A stretch of 64,000 bases of DNA from Lysobacteraceae bacterium SCN 69-320. GTDB taxonomy: Bacteria > Pseudomonadota > Gammaproteobacteria > Xanthomonadales > Rhodanobacteraceae. Below the pieces are notes generated by a model, which was not told the DNA's origin, searched no databases, and worked only from the letters and a program-made list of their open reading frames with translations. The stretch covers positions 124,001-188,000 of the forward strand of contig MEFP01000019.1 in assembly GCA_001725155.1 (NCBI GenBank), given 5' to 3'. Shown piece after piece: positions 1-5,405 of the stretch. The position numbers and the translations under genes are program-made. Position 1 is the stretch's first letter, and every line of letters begins with the position of its first letter.

Positions 1-1684
1 CCTTGCCGGTGAACGTGCGGATCGCATTGATGCTCTTGCCGGTGCTGGTGACGTTGAGATCTTCCTGCGCCTGGTCGTTGAGCTTCACCGCCACGCCGCT
101 GATGTCGGCGACCGCGACGTTGGCCGGCGCCTTCCAGACGCCGCGCGTGCGATCCACCGCCGCGTAGATGCCGGCCACGGCGCCCGAAGGCGGCTGCAGG
201 GTCATCGCGCGCGTCACCTGCTCGAGGATGTTGGCGAACACCGGATGCCTGTCGAACAGCTGGCGCTGCGCTTCGTCGGCCAGGAATTCCACGCTCGTGA
301 AGATCGCGAGCACGGCGGCCGCCGGCGGATCGAACAGCCGGCGCAGCGCCGAGGCCGCATTCAGCGCCGTCGCGCGCACGGAAGCATCGGCGAACACGTC
401 GGCGCTGGCGCCGATGGCCGTCGCGTCGGCATTGGGCGCTATCCACGGCGTGCCGTTGAGCGCGGCGTAGCTGGCCACCACGTCGCCGACCACGCGCGTG
501 GTCGAGATCGAACTCATGACGCCGGCGTTCTTCTCGTAGGCGATCAGCGCCGAAATGCCGGCCGCCAGCTCGGTGTCCTTGCTCAGATCGGTCACTGCAA
601 GATTCACCGAGGCCGGCAGCGACGGCGCCGCGGTCTGCAGCGCGCGCAGCGCCAGCACCACCGCGCGCGCCAGGATCACGAGGTTGGCGAACCGCTGGCG
701 CACCGTGGCCACCGGCGTCGCAGCCTCGGTCTGGCGCAGCAGGGCGAGGAAGTTCGCGTAGTGATCGCCGAGCTGTCCGAAGTTCGCGCGCGTCAGCGTC
801 AGCGCGTTCGGCCCGGTCATCGCGGAGACGTTCACCGTGCCCACCACGGTGTTCACGGCGGCATCGGCCGCGCGCGTCGCGGTCGCCAGACCGTCGATCG
901 CCGCGTCATTGATCAACGCGTCGATCGTGGCCGGCGGAATCGGGGCCAGCGCCGGGGTCACCAGGTTGAGCTGGCGGAAATCCACGTCCGGCCGATAGAT
1001 CGTCCGCAACCAGGGGTAGTAGGCCGCGCCGTAGCGCAGCGACGAGGTGCCCACGTTCTGGCGGAAATTGCCGATCGGATCCAGCGCCAGCGACACCGGC
1101 TGGTCGCCCTGCACGAGGTCCATGATGACGAAGCGGTCCTGCAGCTTCTCGCACTGCGCCAGCGCCGCGACCTGCAGCGAGCCCATGTCGGTCGCGCTGA
1201 GCGAGACGCCGTCGGGAAACACGAGGAGGGTGGGTTCGTCCACGGGTTCGACGCGCGACAGCCCGCCGAGCAGGCCGGCCGGCGTGGTCGTATCGCCGAG
1301 CACCGGAGCGTCGCCGTACGCCCCCACGGAAACGACGTAGCAGGGACCGCCGCCGTTGGCGTAGTAGTGGCGCAGCGCGGCGGCCAGGTAGTAGCGCCGC
1401 TCGGCGTCGGCTGCATTGCGCGGCGATACCGCGCCGACGGCGTTTCCGCTGGCCGTGTCGACGACGACGCGATACGACGCCGGCGTGAAACCGCCGCCGT
1501 AGAACTGCTGGTATTCGAGCAGCGAGCGGATGCGTGTCGGCACGAAATGCAGGTCGTCGCCCGCTGCGCTCTGCGCGCGTTCGCTGTAGCCGATGAACAC
1601 GGGGACGGCGGTTTCCACCGCCACCACGGACGGCGCCAGAGTGGAGATCTCCTCCACGTATACACCGGGTGTCTTGTACGCCAT
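1..1684 (-). CDS. Contractile sheath protein, second paralogue (partial, runs off left edge)
   Basis: The frame opens at ATG 1684 and stays open to base 1, giving about 561 residues without the C-terminus. The N-terminus reads MAYKTPGVYVEEIS, the classic start of phage-tail and injection-system sheath proteins, which polymerise around an inner tube and contract to drive it through a target membrane. A second landmark, GIYAAVDRTRGVWKAPAN, and the visible end, STGKSINAIRTFTGK, match the same places in the neighbouring sheath gene, so the two are paralogues. This copy is much longer because of a large insertion between the N-terminal half and the GIYAAVDRTRG landmark. The upstream sheath gene stops 3 bases before this start (TGA tcc ATG), so they are co-transcribed. 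Tube, baseplate and ATPase genes would be expected beyond the left edge. T6SS TssC is unlikely because the neighbours are of Pvc16 type. Confidence 0.88.
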   Translation of the reverse strand, partial: MAYKTPGVYVEEISTLAPSVVAVETAVPVFIGYSERAQSAAGDDLHFVPTRIRSLLEYQQFYGGGFTPASYRVVVDTASGNAVGAVSPRNAADAERRYYLAAALRHYYANGGGPCYVVSVGAYGDAPVLGDTTTPAGLLGGLSRVEPVDEPTLLVFPDGVSLSATDMGSLQVAALAQCEKLQDRFVIMDLVQGDQPVSLALDPIGNFRQNVGTSSLRYGAAYYPWLRTIYRPDVDFRQLNLVTPALAPIPPATIDALINDAAIDGLATATRAADAAVNTVVGTVNVSAMTGPNALTLTRANFGQLGDHYANFLALLRQTEAATPVATVRQRFANLVILARAVVLALRALQTAAPSLPASVNLAVTDLSKDTELAAGISALIAYEKNAGVMSSISTTRVVGDVVASYAALNGTPWIAPNADATAIGASADVFADASVRATALNAASALRRLFDPPAAAVLAIFTSVEFLADEAQRQLFDRHPVFANILEQVTRAMTLQPPSGAVAGIYAAVDRTRGVWKAPANVAVADISGVAVKLNDQAQEDLNVTSTGKSINAIRTFTGK

Positions 1685-1687
1685 GGA

Positions 1688-3157
1688 TCAGGACTCCTGC
1701 ATCTTGTGCGAGAAACGCAGCACCACGAACTCGGCCGGCCTCGCCACCGCCATGCCGATCTCGACGTTCATGCGGCCTTCGAGGATGTCCTGCGCCGTCA
1801 TCGTCACGCCCAGTCCGACGTTGACGTAGAACGCATCGACGGGCTTGGCGCCGACCAGCGCGCCGTCGCGCCACTGGATGATCAGGAAGTTCTCGATCAT
1901 CGCCTTGACCTTGGCCCAGGTCCTCGCGTCGTTGGGCTCGAACACGAACGGCTCGGTGGCCTTGCGCGTGGATTCCTCGACCATGTTGAAGAAGCGCCGC
2001 ACGGACACGTAGCGCCATTCGTTGTCGTTGCCGGCCAGGGTGCGCGCGCCCCAGACCAGGAAGCCCTTGCCGCTGAACGCACGCAGCGCGTTGACGGCCT
2101 TGCCGCTCGGCTCCAGGTTCATGGTGTCGTTGAGGTCCTGGTCGATGCGCACGCTGAGGTCGATGACCGAGCTCAGGCTCTCGTTCGCCGGCGACTTCCA
2201 CACGCCGCGCGTACGGTCCACCGTGGCGTAGATGCCCACCACCGCAGCGGCAGGCGGCAAAGTGACGCTGAACCGCGCCAGTTCGCTGCGCGCGTTGGCA
2301 TAGATCAGCGGGTTGGAATTCGGCGAACCCGACTTGAGCGCCGTCAGCGTCATGCCGTTGTGCGGACTGGGGCGCGTGACGCTGCCGTCGTCATTGCGGC
2401 GCGCGATCTGCGCGACCGTGATGGTCGACTCGTCCCAGCTCCACGCCATCGTGGTCTGGATGTACGGGTGATAGGCCGCGCCGTACTTGAGATTGCGCGT
2501 ACCGATGCCGTTGCGGAACGCAGCGATGCCGTCGCTGCCGGGCCGGTCGCCGTCCCAGAGATCGCAGACCAGGAAGCGATCGCCGAGCTCGGCGCATTGA
2601 TTCAACGCCTGCACCAGCACCGAGTGATACGCGGCGCGCGTGGCGGCGATATCCGCCGGTGTCGCGGCCGGCGGTGGCCGCATCCCGCTGAGGTCGGGAA
2701 AGACGATCAGGGTCGGCTCGTCCTCGCGCGCCAGTGCATCGAGCGCGGCCACATGCGCGTCGACGATGTCGCTGGTCGCCGCGCTGGCGGCGTAGGTCCC
2801 CAGGCTCACGACGTAGCAGCGGCCGCCGCCGTTGTCGTAGAAATGACGCAGCGCGTAGGCCAGGCGGAACCGCGCATTCGCTCCCTGCCCCGGATCGGCG
2901 ACGGGTGCGGCGACGTTGCCGTCCTCGTCCAGCGCGATGGCGAACCCGCCGAGCGCCGGCGCAAGACCGAAGATCTCCTGGAATTCCAGCAGCGAATTCA
3001 CCGCCACCGGATGATTGACCAGGTCGGTGCCCTTGTACTGCGCGTTGCGCGTGTAACCGAAAAACGCGGGAATCGCGGTTTCGACCGGCACCACGGACGG
3101 AGGAAACTTCGATTCCTCCACGATGTACACGCCCGGAGTTCTCAGATTCAGCGGCAT
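1688..3157 (-). CDS. Contractile sheath protein, first paralogue
   Basis: A complete 489-residue sheath protein of a phage-tail-like injection system. It begins MPLNLRTPGVYIVEESKFPP, has the GIYATVDRTRGVWKSPAN and SGKAVNALRAFSGKG landmarks, and ends with the conserved C-terminal sheath domain (around residues 380-489: RRFFNMVEES, FLIIQWRDGALVG, IGMAVARPAEFVVLRFSHK). That C-terminal domain carries the contacts linking successive sheath rings in known systems. The start at 3157 lies 3 bases after the stop of the upstream gene and opens with the family-typical motif. Having more than one sheath gene is usual in PVC/Afp-type particles (Afp2-4), where the forms occupy different levels of the trunk. 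No signal peptide or membrane segment is seen, as expected for a particle assembled in the cytoplasm. Confidence 0.93.
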   Translation of the reverse strand: MPLNLRTPGVYIVEESKFPPSVVPVETAIPAFFGYTRNAQYKGTDLVNHPVAVNSLLEFQEIFGLAPALGGFAIALDEDGNVAAPVADPGQGANARFRLAYALRHFYDNGGGRCYVVSLGTYAASAATSDIVDAHVAALDALAREDEPTLIVFPDLSGMRPPPAATPADIAATRAAYHSVLVQALNQCAELGDRFLVCDLWDGDRPGSDGIAAFRNGIGTRNLKYGAAYHPYIQTTMAWSWDESTITVAQIARRNDDGSVTRPSPHNGMTLTALKSGSPNSNPLIYANARSELARFSVTLPPAAAVVGIYATVDRTRGVWKSPANESLSSVIDLSVRIDQDLNDTMNLEPSGKAVNALRAFSGKGFLVWGARTLAGNDNEWRYVSVRRFFNMVEESTRKATEPFVFEPNDARTWAKVKAMIENFLIIQWRDGALVGAKPVDAFYVNVGLGVTMTAQDILEGRMNVEIGMAVARPAEFVVLRFSHKMQES

Positions 3158-3160
3158 GGC

Positions 3161-4534
3161 TCACGGTCCCAGGGTCAGGTTCGGAAGATGTGTTTCGGAG
3201 AACCATTCGTCGTTCTGGCGCCGCAGGCGGTCAACCTCGGGCGCGGGAAGCAGGATTTCTTCGGACGCCGGTGTCGCCGAGACGTCGGCCTGCAGGCGCG
3301 ATCCCGCGCCGAAGCGCGACAGCGGACGCGCGGCAGCGGTGACGAGAACGCGCTGGTCCGCCCCTTCGGCGGCGACGTCCGCACCAGCGCCGACGGCCTG
3401 CGCGGCAGGAAAGATGTAACGCCAGCGGGTGGCGCGATTGAGAAAGCGCAGCACGTAGCGCGGCGAGCGCAGTGCGCCGGCGCCGTCGAGCAGCGCGTAG
3501 TCCGCCGTGCCGCGCGTGATCTCGATCACGCCGAATGCGCCGGCCGAGCGCGCATCGGGGGCGACGAACAGCGACGTCGTGAGACCGGGCTGCGGCGTCT
3601 GCGCGTCGTCCAGGACGTCGAGACGGCAGATACCGGATGGCAGCGCACGCAGATCGACCCGAATCCGGCTCAACGTGCCCTGCTCTGCCGCAAAGCGCTG
3701 TTCGGAAAGCGGCGTTGCCGCGCCGGCCCGCGTCACGCGCACGATGGCGCCGGTCAAGGCGGCGCTGGCGATGTCGAGCGTCGCGAACCCGAAGTCGGCA
3801 CGCATCGCATCCGCGGCGCCGGCGTACTGGTTGCCGAGCAGCGCGACGGGCTGCCACTGCGCCGCGTTCGTGAGATCGGTTCCCGGCGCATCGACGAGCG
3901 CGCGGTATACCCGGTTCGCGGCCAGGACGACCGCACCGGACCGATAGCTTGCGCTCGCGCTGAACGTATCGGCCGGAATGCGACGCCAGTCTGCGGCAAC
4001 CGGCGTCGCGGCCGGTCCGCTGTCGCGCAGCGCGAGGAACAGATCGAACGTCGGACCTGCCGCCTCGGCGCGAACATCGCCGGCCAGGTAACGGCGCGTC
4101 GGATCGAACGCCGGGACAGGCCGCGACAGGTAGCTGACGCCGGCGACGCGGTTCAGCGCGTCGTTGCCGAAGCGATAGAAGTTCGCGGGCTGGCCGAGCT
4201 CCGTGTAGTTCGCGAACCGCGCGTCGCGCACGCGCAGCAGAAACGCCAGTCGGAATGCTCCGCCCGGCGCGACGAGCGGCCGCGGCGGCGTCGACGCATC
4301 GACCTGCGCGGCGACGAAGAATCCCGTGCGCGTGCTGCGGAACACCAGCCGGTGACCCGCCAGCGTGGCGAGCGTCGCCGCATCGGGCTGGATATCGAGA
4401 ACGTCGGCCGCCGAATACAGCGCCGTCAGCGCGGCCCGGTCCGCGTCCGACTGCGCGTCGAGCACGATCTCGCCGCGACTCGTGAAATAGTCGTGCGCAA
4501 TGTCGACTTCGAACAATGTGCGGTAGCGGATCAT
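3161..4534 (-). CDS. Uncharacterised injection-system protein between Pvc16-like and sheath genes
   Basis: A 457-residue protein, not recognised with confidence. It starts MIRYRTLFEVDIAHDYF, has no signal peptide and no transmembrane helix, and is rich in Ala, Arg and Asp with many short beta-like stretches; an SYLSRPVPAFDPTRRYLAGD segment lies near residue 135. Its ATG overlaps the stop of the Pvc16-like gene by four bases and its stop is 3 bases from the sheath start, so it is translated in step with particle components. The position argues for a structural or assembly role such as a cap, collar or fibre-like part. That is inference from context only. Confidence 0.75.
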   Translation of the reverse strand: MIRYRTLFEVDIAHDYFTSRGEIVLDAQSDADRAALTALYSAADVLDIQPDAATLATLAGHRLVFRSTRTGFFVAAQVDASTPPRPLVAPGGAFRLAFLLRVRDARFANYTELGQPANFYRFGNDALNRVAGVSYLSRPVPAFDPTRRYLAGDVRAEAAGPTFDLFLALRDSGPAATPVAADWRRIPADTFSASASYRSGAVVLAANRVYRALVDAPGTDLTNAAQWQPVALLGNQYAGAADAMRADFGFATLDIASAALTGAIVRVTRAGAATPLSEQRFAAEQGTLSRIRVDLRALPSGICRLDVLDDAQTPQPGLTTSLFVAPDARSAGAFGVIEITRGTADYALLDGAGALRSPRYVLRFLNRATRWRYIFPAAQAVGAGADVAAEGADQRVLVTAAARPLSRFGAGSRLQADVSATPASEEILLPAPEVDRLRRQNDEWFSETHLPNLTLGP

Positions 4535-5130
4535 GCGGTCGCATCCCGGCTCAGCACGTCGACCTCGCGGATGTAGCCGCCGCCCGCCAGAGTGCGGTCG
4601 TCGGAGATCGCCACGAGGCGCCCGCGATACAGCACCGAAACGCCCTGCTTGGCGCCGAGGAATCCCCAGAGGTGATTGACTCCCTCCAGCGTCGGCGACA
4701 GGAGATCCATCGTGAGCGAGAACTCCGCGATCGGCGGCTGCGGCAGCGCGCCCGGCGAGTTCGCCAGCGTGAACTTCTGCTTGCCCTGGAAGAACGTCAG
4801 CACCTGCGACAGCCGGCGCAGCGCCGTGCCGTAGTTCCGGTAGTTCGCCGTGAACAGCAGGAACAGGTTCAGATGGACAGGGCGGTTGCGATATGCCACG
4901 TCGGAGCCGACGCTCACGAACGACTTGCCGTTCTTGAGCGCCCGTTCCTCCTCGATATTCACGAGCGTCAGCACGATGTGGTTCTCGAGCTCGGTGGCGA
5001 CTTCCGGCCGCTCGATCTGCGCGACGTTGCCCCAGACGGCTTGCACGGGCGCGCCGGGACCGTCGCCGTCGGCCTGCGCCACGTAGCCGTTGAGCTGCCT
5101 GAGCAGCAGTGTCATCGCCTCGACCATCAT
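4531..5130 (-). CDS. DUF4255 / Pvc16-type trunk-terminating protein
   Basis: 199 residues if translated from the first of two adjacent ATG codons (5130 and 5127). It carries the hallmark series of the Pvc16 N-terminal (DUF4255) family: an N-terminal helix with LLLRQLN, IVLTLVNIEEERALKN near residue 52, YRNRPVHLNLFLLFTANYRN near residue 80, and LSQVLTFFQGKQKFT near residue 107. Members of this family (Afp16, Pvc16) cap the distal end of eCIS particles and influence trunk length. The start is set by an ATGA overlap with the upstream 92-residue gene, and the stop overlaps the next gene by four bases. Its presence is the main reason to assign the cluster to extracellular injection systems rather than to a Myoviridae prophage or a T6SS. 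Confidence 0.88.
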   Translation of the reverse strand: MMVEAMTLLLRQLNGYVAQADGDGPGAPVQAVWGNVAQIERPEVATELENHIVLTLVNIEEERALKNGKSFVSVGSDVAYRNRPVHLNLFLLFTANYRNYGTALRRLSQVLTFFQGKQKFTLANSPGALPQPPIAEFSLTMDLLSPTLEGVNHLWGFLGAKQGVSVLYRGRLVAISDDRTLAGGGYIREVDVLSRDATA

Positions 5131-5405
5131 CTGTCGCGATCCTCGACTGCGGTCTGCGCTCCTGGCGCGCCCCCCGCGGCGCAGCCCGAACATCCGAACA
5201 GGGTCGTTCCGTCGTTGAGACGGTGCGCGGTCACGACCTGGCGCTCGATCAGGTAGGCCATCGCCGCCTCGAGGACATCCCGCTCGTCCGCCGCGCGCTG
5301 GAACGCAAGCCACCACGCGATGCCGTCGAGCGTGTCGCAAGCACCGGGATGCGCGTCGCAATACCGTTTGACGTCGGCGGCAACTTCCTGCACAGAACGA
5401 GTCAC
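5127..5405 (-). CDS. Small protein heading the injection-system operon, possible winged helix
   Basis: A 92-residue protein starting at GTG 5405, supported by a strong GGAGGGGG ribosome-binding site at 5411-5418. The core (residues about 20-70: ACDTLDGIAWWL, then ERDVLEAAMAYLIERQVV, then RLNDGTTLFGC) has the length and pattern of a short winged-helix unit: helix, helix, beta wing. Two cysteines (CSGC) close the fold and a polar tail follows. Its stop overlaps the ATG pair of the Pvc16-like gene, so it is the first gene of the operon. It could be a local regulator or a small adaptor, and the sequence does not decide between them. Confidence 0.7.
   Translation of the reverse strand: MTRSVQEVAADVKRYCDAHPGACDTLDGIAWWLAFQRAADERDVLEAAMAYLIERQVVTAHRLNDGTTLFGCSGCAAGGAPGAQTAVEDRDR

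Follow-up and report, generated by a model that had tools for sequence, protein, structure and literature searches.

An apparently intact AlgoCIS-like contractile injection locus in a Lysobacteraceae bacterium, with a predicted envelope-anchored VWD protein encoded behind the tape measure

How free contractile particles of the cytoplasm reach the membrane, leave the cell and spare their maker is the question addressed here for bacteria outside Streptomyces and Anabaena. A gene cluster of Lysobacteraceae bacterium SCN 69-320 poses it in concrete form: which machine does the cluster encode, and what is the role of the exported VWD protein encoded within it? The source genome comprises 5.71 Mb in 30 contigs, and the window, i.e. 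the whole stretch of 64,000 nucleotides that was analysed, corresponds to C19:124001-188000. Five genes of an extracellular contractile injection system (eCIS) lie at its left edge. The complete cluster has 20 genes in 27.5 kb, is encoded on the minus strand throughout and runs leftward from window position 5405, with the remaining genes downstream in the left flank, which was read from C19:70001-129800 and C19:100001-120000 (Table 1). Spacings among the five window genes are -4, -4, +3 and +3, the largest gap as far as the tape measure is 28 bases, and beyond the tape measure gaps of 68, 288, 7 and 43 bases follow in this order. The G+C content of the locus is 0.675 compared to 0.692 and 0.684 in the flanks, and 1-kb values fall to 0.607 over the payload gene. 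Unrelated genes, encoding a HerA-like protein, a TPR protein, an Fe-S biosynthesis protein and a class II tRNA synthetase, flank the cluster on both sides, and no tRNA was found in L002, L003 or L005.

Table 1. Genes of the contractile injection cluster in the order in which they are read.
Product	Position	Strand	Remarks
92-aa conserved small protein	window 5127-5405	minus	heads the run; overlaps the cap gene by ATGA
Pvc16_N/DUF4255 tube cap, 198-199 aa	window 4531-5130	minus	PF14065 101 bits, cut-off 27
Cap adaptor (Alg16B / All3326 family), 457 aa	window 3161-4534	minus	PDB matches 7adz, 7b5i
Short sheath, 489 aa	window 1688-3157	minus	Phage_sheath_1C 49.9 bits
Long sheath, 686 aa	window 1-1684, ends C19:123624 (376 bases left of the edge)	minus	Phage_sheath_1C 47.1 bits
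Two gp19 tubes	C19:123599-123168 and 123164-122661	minus	PF06841 166 and 107 bits
DUF5908 plug	C19:122661-122440	minus
CIS_tube, 253 aa	C19:122440-121679	minus	Pfam
VgrG-like spike	C19:121682-119931	minus	AlgoCIS 7aef 519 bits
PAAR	C19:119912-119625	minus	Pfam
gp25	C19:119623-119210	minus	Pfam
J-like baseplate protein	C19:119213-115941	minus	PDB 7aeb 394.5 bits; no Pfam match
S74 fibre (P0002)	C19:115912-114836	minus	Peptidase_S74 43.3 bits, cut-off 22
Alg12-like (Afp12-like) wedge	C19:114839-111420	minus	PDB: All3315 175.5 bits, Alg12 157.6 bits; no Pfam match
Tape measure	start about C19:111430, to 109958	minus	PF19268 (CIS_TMP) 335 bits
Exported VWD protein, 512-513 aa	C19:109889-108348	minus	directly after the tape measure
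283-aa protein	C19:108059-107208	minus
eCIS_core (DUF4157) payload, 1298 aa	C19:107200-103304	minus	PF13699 113 bits
AAA+ ATPase	C19:103260-101869	minus	PF00004 93 bits

The original prediction for this DNA described five genes joined by four-base overlaps or 3-base gaps, two sheath paralogues and a Pvc16/DUF4255 protein, and this observation is confirmed in all three parts. The two sheaths share 48% identity and each has its own orthologue in relatives. Hence, they are old paralogues, and a recent duplication is rejected. Both exceed the Pfam cut-off for Phage_sheath_1C (PF17482, 26.9 bits; scores in Table 1) and stay below that for Phage_sheath_1 (26.9 and 28.9 versus 31.4 bits), and the long sheath matches the AlgoCIS sheath 7adz with 459.2 bits and the tCIS protein All3325 with 459.0 bits in the PDB. 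The 457-aa gene has no Pfam match. A phmmer search of the PDB connected it to the cap adaptor of 7adz (E 1.9e-12) and to All3326 of 7b5i (E 2.1e-12), and a profile built from 20 homologues reached E values of 3.2e-48 and 5.3e-47, respectively, so that this previously unnamed gene beside the cap can be assigned as cap adaptor. The cap that it adjoins is short, as in AlgoCIS/tCIS-type systems, and close in size to Alg16A (197 aa). By eye, residues about 140-230 of the adaptor appear to form two tandem repeats resembling carbohydrate-binding modules (Y-GD ... W); the same is seen in L062, and other homologues apparently have one or none. The 92-aa protein has no Pfam match above cut-off. Its homologues lead other eCIS loci as well (L042, L043, L054, L055, L107 with 30 bits and HS124 with 40% identity), and a pattern HP-A-DTL-GI--WL ... 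LP-G--LY recurs in several of the eCIS loci. Possibly it is a so far unnamed factor in regulation or assembly.

Tube, baseplate, AAA+ and payload genes had been predicted to the left of the window, and all are present there in one co-directional run. Among the individual genes expected, the gp19 tube, gp25, J-like and AAA+ genes were found, together with CIS_tube; the expected LysM domain was not, the 253-aa CIS_tube protein giving no Pfam match to it. The locus combines a Pvc16 cap, two sheaths and two gp19 tubes, spike, PAAR, gp25, J-like and Afp12-like wedges, a tape measure, an AAA+ ATPase and an eCIS_core/DUF4157 protein, and as far as gene content can tell this supports the predicted eCIS. 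The best solved homologues of the sheath, spike, J-like and Alg12-like proteins are chains of AlgoCIS and tCIS. TIGR02243 scored 48.7 bits on the J-like protein, below that model's cut-off, and PHROGs and NCBIfam added nothing that mattered for the 457-, 512- and 283-aa proteins. A type VI secretion system (T6SS) or a decaying prophage is hardly credible and is rejected on gene content: the spike, PAAR and gp25 families are common to T6SS and phages, but the Pvc16 cap, cap adaptor, CIS_tube, DUF5908 plug, CIS_TMP and eCIS_core proteins are all there, the 20 cluster genes gave no Pfam match to T6SS parts (TssB/TssC pair, TssK, TssJLM) or prophage parts (capsid, terminase, portal, lysis), several of which the original prediction had named as contrary evidence, and the listed genes are open throughout, with no internal stop. 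In our judgement, it is highly probable that the window holds the head of a complete, apparently intact AlgoCIS-like eCIS of which the exported VWD protein is most likely an accessory part. The eCIS itself is of an already known kind and ordinary in these bacteria, since Pvc16 genes occur in 56 of 233 genomes of the source family (one copy was matched in the source genome). Two genomes of the family (G071 and G085) carry three Pvc16 genes each, in different score classes, so several eCIS types coexist. The lineage described here is rare in the family, as the cap adaptor search matched 4 of the 233 genomes, namely the source genome and three with a partial match.

Relatives were collected with a four-row alignment of the spike, and the best 80 of at least 224 confirmed relatives were kept. 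Among these 80, the closest is Lysobacter antibioticus HS124 at 85%, followed by an Acidobacteria MAG at 68% and Marimonas arenosa at 52%; the remaining 77 lie at 41-47%. The gene order recurs in named genomes. HS124 has the same genes over two contigs, with the contig break falling where the second tube, which was not seen, would lie; this recurrence shows that the cluster in the window is more than chance. Fourteen machine proteins are 69-96% identical between the source genome and HS124 (tape measure lowest with 69%, PAAR highest with 96%), as are the VWD protein (81%) and the 283-aa protein (82%), whereas the 92-aa protein reaches 40% and the eCIS_core protein only 27%. Thus, the payload was exchanged and the rest of the machine was kept. 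With the Marimonas payload the source protein shares 41% over about 1,150 positions, and the sequences are seen as pointing to payload exchange between phylogenetically distant hosts. Two side observations concern single genes. The payload gene (C19:103304-107200) has a G+C content below its surroundings and is nearer to that of Marimonas (41%) than to that of HS124 (27%), and the tape measure of the Acidobacteria MAG (L061 10099-11549 / L154) consists of two overlapping ORFs and may be frameshifted or misassembled.

The fibre protein carries a Peptidase_S74 domain after an N-terminal part and shaft that are common to six homologues, and an S74 fibre match was found in 6 of the best 80 loci (of at least 224), several of these 80 loci being short. 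A Ser-Asp-x-Arg-x-Lys motif, whose Ser and Lys we take to be the catalytic dyad, is kept in all eight S74 fibres and is missing from the related short fibre of a Bacteroidia MAG (L072). The S74-type relative of the fibre in the PDB is MYRF (7dc3, E 4.7e-8). In endosialidases and MYRF, the S74 protein trimerises and cuts off its own chaperone, and by analogy the fibre described here should trimerise and cleave its chaperone, leaving about 247 residues. In the part of the eCIS survey available to us, Peptidase S74 is named as an eCIS shell domain and such operons are without annotated Afp13 fibres (Geller et al., 2021; PMC8213781), and the S74 fibre of Microscilla marina is put under the anchor type eBAP2 in the accessible part of another study (Nachmias, 2026; PMC12923769). 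S74 is not an exact mark of the lineage, the L072 locus having a short fibre without S74 and the exported protein nonetheless. A short fibre was rejected as a mark: short genes of four comparison loci (L048-L051) are weakly fibre-like (15.9-17.8 bits) and a Chryseobacterium region (L193) has two short fibre-like ORFs, in both cases with no exported protein. Two sheaths were likewise rejected as a mark, as loci of Mucilaginibacter, Chlorobiaceae and Desulfobulbus without an S74 match also have two and L072, which belongs to the clade, has a single sheath of 650 aa.

In the source genome, the exported protein has a signal peptide that by eye ends in AQA, a VWD-like domain and, at its C-terminus, a hydrophobic helix ending in RKK. 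Pfam scores of the VWD domain are 17.6 bits in this protein and 17.6-20.8 bits over the VWD members, all under the cut-off of 22.9, and in the PDB it matches FCGBP (E 1.4e-6). Throughout the family, a signal peptide and a common N-terminal domain are followed by VWD (3/9) or VWA (6/9, above the Pfam cut-off or by profile), and six of the nine members end in a C-terminal anchor, the three without it all belonging to the order of Spirosoma. The signal peptides are assigned by eye, and 4/9 pass an N-terminal hydropathy threshold. The VWA metal-site residues DxSxS..T..D, presumably a MIDAS, are invariant in all six VWA members. Searched against 13,153 ORFs, a profile of the VWA N-terminal domain matched its own seven members and, beyond these, just the three VWD proteins, a striking rank at weak scores (E 9e-5, 0.006 and 0.07; 22, 16 and 13 bits). 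Based on the Sec signal combined with the C-terminal anchor, six members are predicted to reside at the outer face of the inner membrane.

Downstream DNA was taken for five relatives with an S74 match, for 20 further loci and for two loci from the order of Spirosoma that were found after the pattern had been noticed. The exported protein is encoded directly after the tape measure in 9/9 loci of the fibre/baseplate clade over three phyla (source, HS124, Acidobacteria MAG, Marimonas, Spirosoma profusum, Lunatibacter, the Bacteroidia MAG L072/L185, G962 and G923). It was found in none of 28 comparison loci with visible tape measure and following DNA (17 of the 20 further loci, L158-L160 and eight with AAA+ immediately next), where the whole-family profile matched no ORF; left out of this comparison were L184 (end of contig), L193 (tape measure not seen) and L185 (itself a member). 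In one comparison locus, L186, a short lipoprotein-like ORF occupies the slot after the tape measure. Fisher's p of 8e-9 for 9/9 versus 0/28 presupposes independence of the loci and is invalid in this form, the nine being one clade. At the thresholds used, searches of the phylum (398 genomes), the Marimonas order (235) and the Acidobacteria class (193) gave no further full-length member and two weaker partial matches, and two further members were found in 390 genomes of the order of Spirosoma. Viral contigs scanned with the Alg12-like alignment yielded 18 loci, all distant.

A quick tree of 76 J-like proteins places the S74 loci and L072 in one clade (8 rows, SH-aLRT 99; G962 excluded) that takes in Bacteroidota, Alpha- and Gammaproteobacteria and Acidobacteriota, with an inner order that is unsure owing to long-branch warnings for L074, L072 and L062. 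Since all nine loci fall into a single clade of the baseplate tree, their association with the exported protein may go back to one acquisition followed by inheritance. The single sheath of L072 sits among other single long sheaths (FastTree, open forks), a weak indication that the exported gene moves with baseplate and fibre but not with the sheath. The single clade would also fit an exported protein that is an unrelated surface or envelope protein, present by chance in the ancestral cluster and hitch-hiking since then, and VWD proteins indeed exist apart from eCIS, in 11 other genomes of the 233 in the family and as a second copy in the source genome, none of them beside a Pvc16 gene. However, the gene has held the same slot in 9/9 loci over three phyla while its adhesive domain (VWA or VWD) and the neighbouring payload changed, and we consider such hitch-hiking unlikely. 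The second VWD protein of the source genome (G000:C12:181574-182473, open frame 779 aa, on a contig without a Pvc16 gene) shares 43% identity with the VWD part of its eCIS counterpart. The VWD search of the family gave copies only away from eCIS, and VWD alone is a general domain in this family.

That the exported protein is instead a payload of the particle appears improbable. Its gene does belong to the cargo region that separates the tape measure from AAA+, and in the part of the survey available to us VWA (PF00092) is counted among eCIS toxin domains thought to act on eukaryotes (Geller et al., 2021; PMC8213781). However, a Sec-type signal peptide (by eye) would take the protein out of the cytoplasm, the site of loading, the C-terminal anchor is present in 6/9 members, and the eCIS_core domain has no match in the exported protein. 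Furthermore, the protein was kept between source and HS124 where the eCIS_core payload was replaced, and it therefore looks like machine equipment rather than cargo. VWA has also been found in eBAP4 fibres, according to the accessible part of that study (Nachmias, 2026; PMC12923769). Our literature search found no membrane-anchored VWA/VWD partner of eCIS in the portions of the articles that were available.

In sum, we lean towards a machine role of some kind for the exported protein, which, judged from the sequences, is tied to the baseplate/fibre lineage rather than to the payload. By analogy with known systems, it may serve in docking and firing (CisA-like, with another topology), hold released particles on membranes, as in tCIS ghosts, or protect the producer. 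Only tentatively do we propose a horizontally spread eCIS lineage, mostly with two sheaths and an S74 fibre, whose dedicated envelope-anchored VWA/VWD adhesin docks, fires or holds the particle or shields the producer.

By homology, tube and sheath would assemble in the cytoplasm upon a baseplate whose wedges are the J-like and Alg12-like proteins, to a length set by the tape measure, and the far end would be closed by the Pvc16 cap and its adaptor. The AAA+ ATPase would aid the loading of cargo, for example the eCIS_core protein. The fibres, in six-fold arrangement, would owe their trimerisation and release to the self-cleaving S74 chaperone; they would then bind the target, followed by contraction of the sheath. 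The exported VWD protein, judging by its conservation and anatomy, would be a lineage-specific accessory part beyond the inner membrane of the producer, with a function in docking, firing or self-protection.

For the question of how such particles meet the envelope of their maker, the exported gene is a concrete candidate, being kept with baseplate and fibre over three phyla, exported, and not swapped together with the payload. This suggests that part, at least, of the 'VWA toxins' in eCIS surveys could belong to the envelope of the producing cell. With the particle, a rare lineage gains a near-complete locus, together with a clear case of payload exchange between close relatives. If the exported protein is indeed an envelope partner, the eCIS would have a partner at the inner membrane's outer face, which would set it apart from free eCIS, from tCIS with its anchor inside the fibre and from CisA with the opposite weighting of its topology.

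Among known systems, AlgoCIS of Algoriphagus machipongonensis (PMC8894135, available part) resembles the source locus in its short Pvc16 cap with separate cap adaptor, DUF5908-type plug (alg6), long sheath (692 aa in 7adz, 459 bits), spike (7aef), J-like wedge with a large extension (7aeb, 395 bits), Alg12-like wedge and DUF4157/eCIS_core cargo. The source locus differs by its second, short sheath, by an S74 fibre where AlgoCIS has the Ig-like Alg19, and by the exported VWD/VWA protein, of which that part of the AlgoCIS report makes no mention. The tCIS of Anabaena is similar by sequence in cap adaptor (All3326), sheath (All3325), spike and baseplate wedges, and is described as anchored by its own fibre-like protein, Cis13, which carries a transmembrane helix (PMC8894136, available part). 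In contrast, the S74 fibre of the source has no transmembrane helix by hydropathy, and the membrane-anchored protein is a separate gene. In the available parts of the studies of S74-bearing eCIS (PMC8213781, PMC12923769), the fibre is not linked to an exported membrane-anchored partner. CisA of the Streptomyces CIS, as described in the accessible part of PMC12237407, is, as predicted for the exported protein, a single-pass membrane protein of the CIS cluster that does not belong to the particle. In CisA, however, the long N-terminus is cytoplasmic and the C-terminus periplasmic, whereas the bulk of the exported protein is predicted to lie outside, with a cytoplasmic tail of a few residues.
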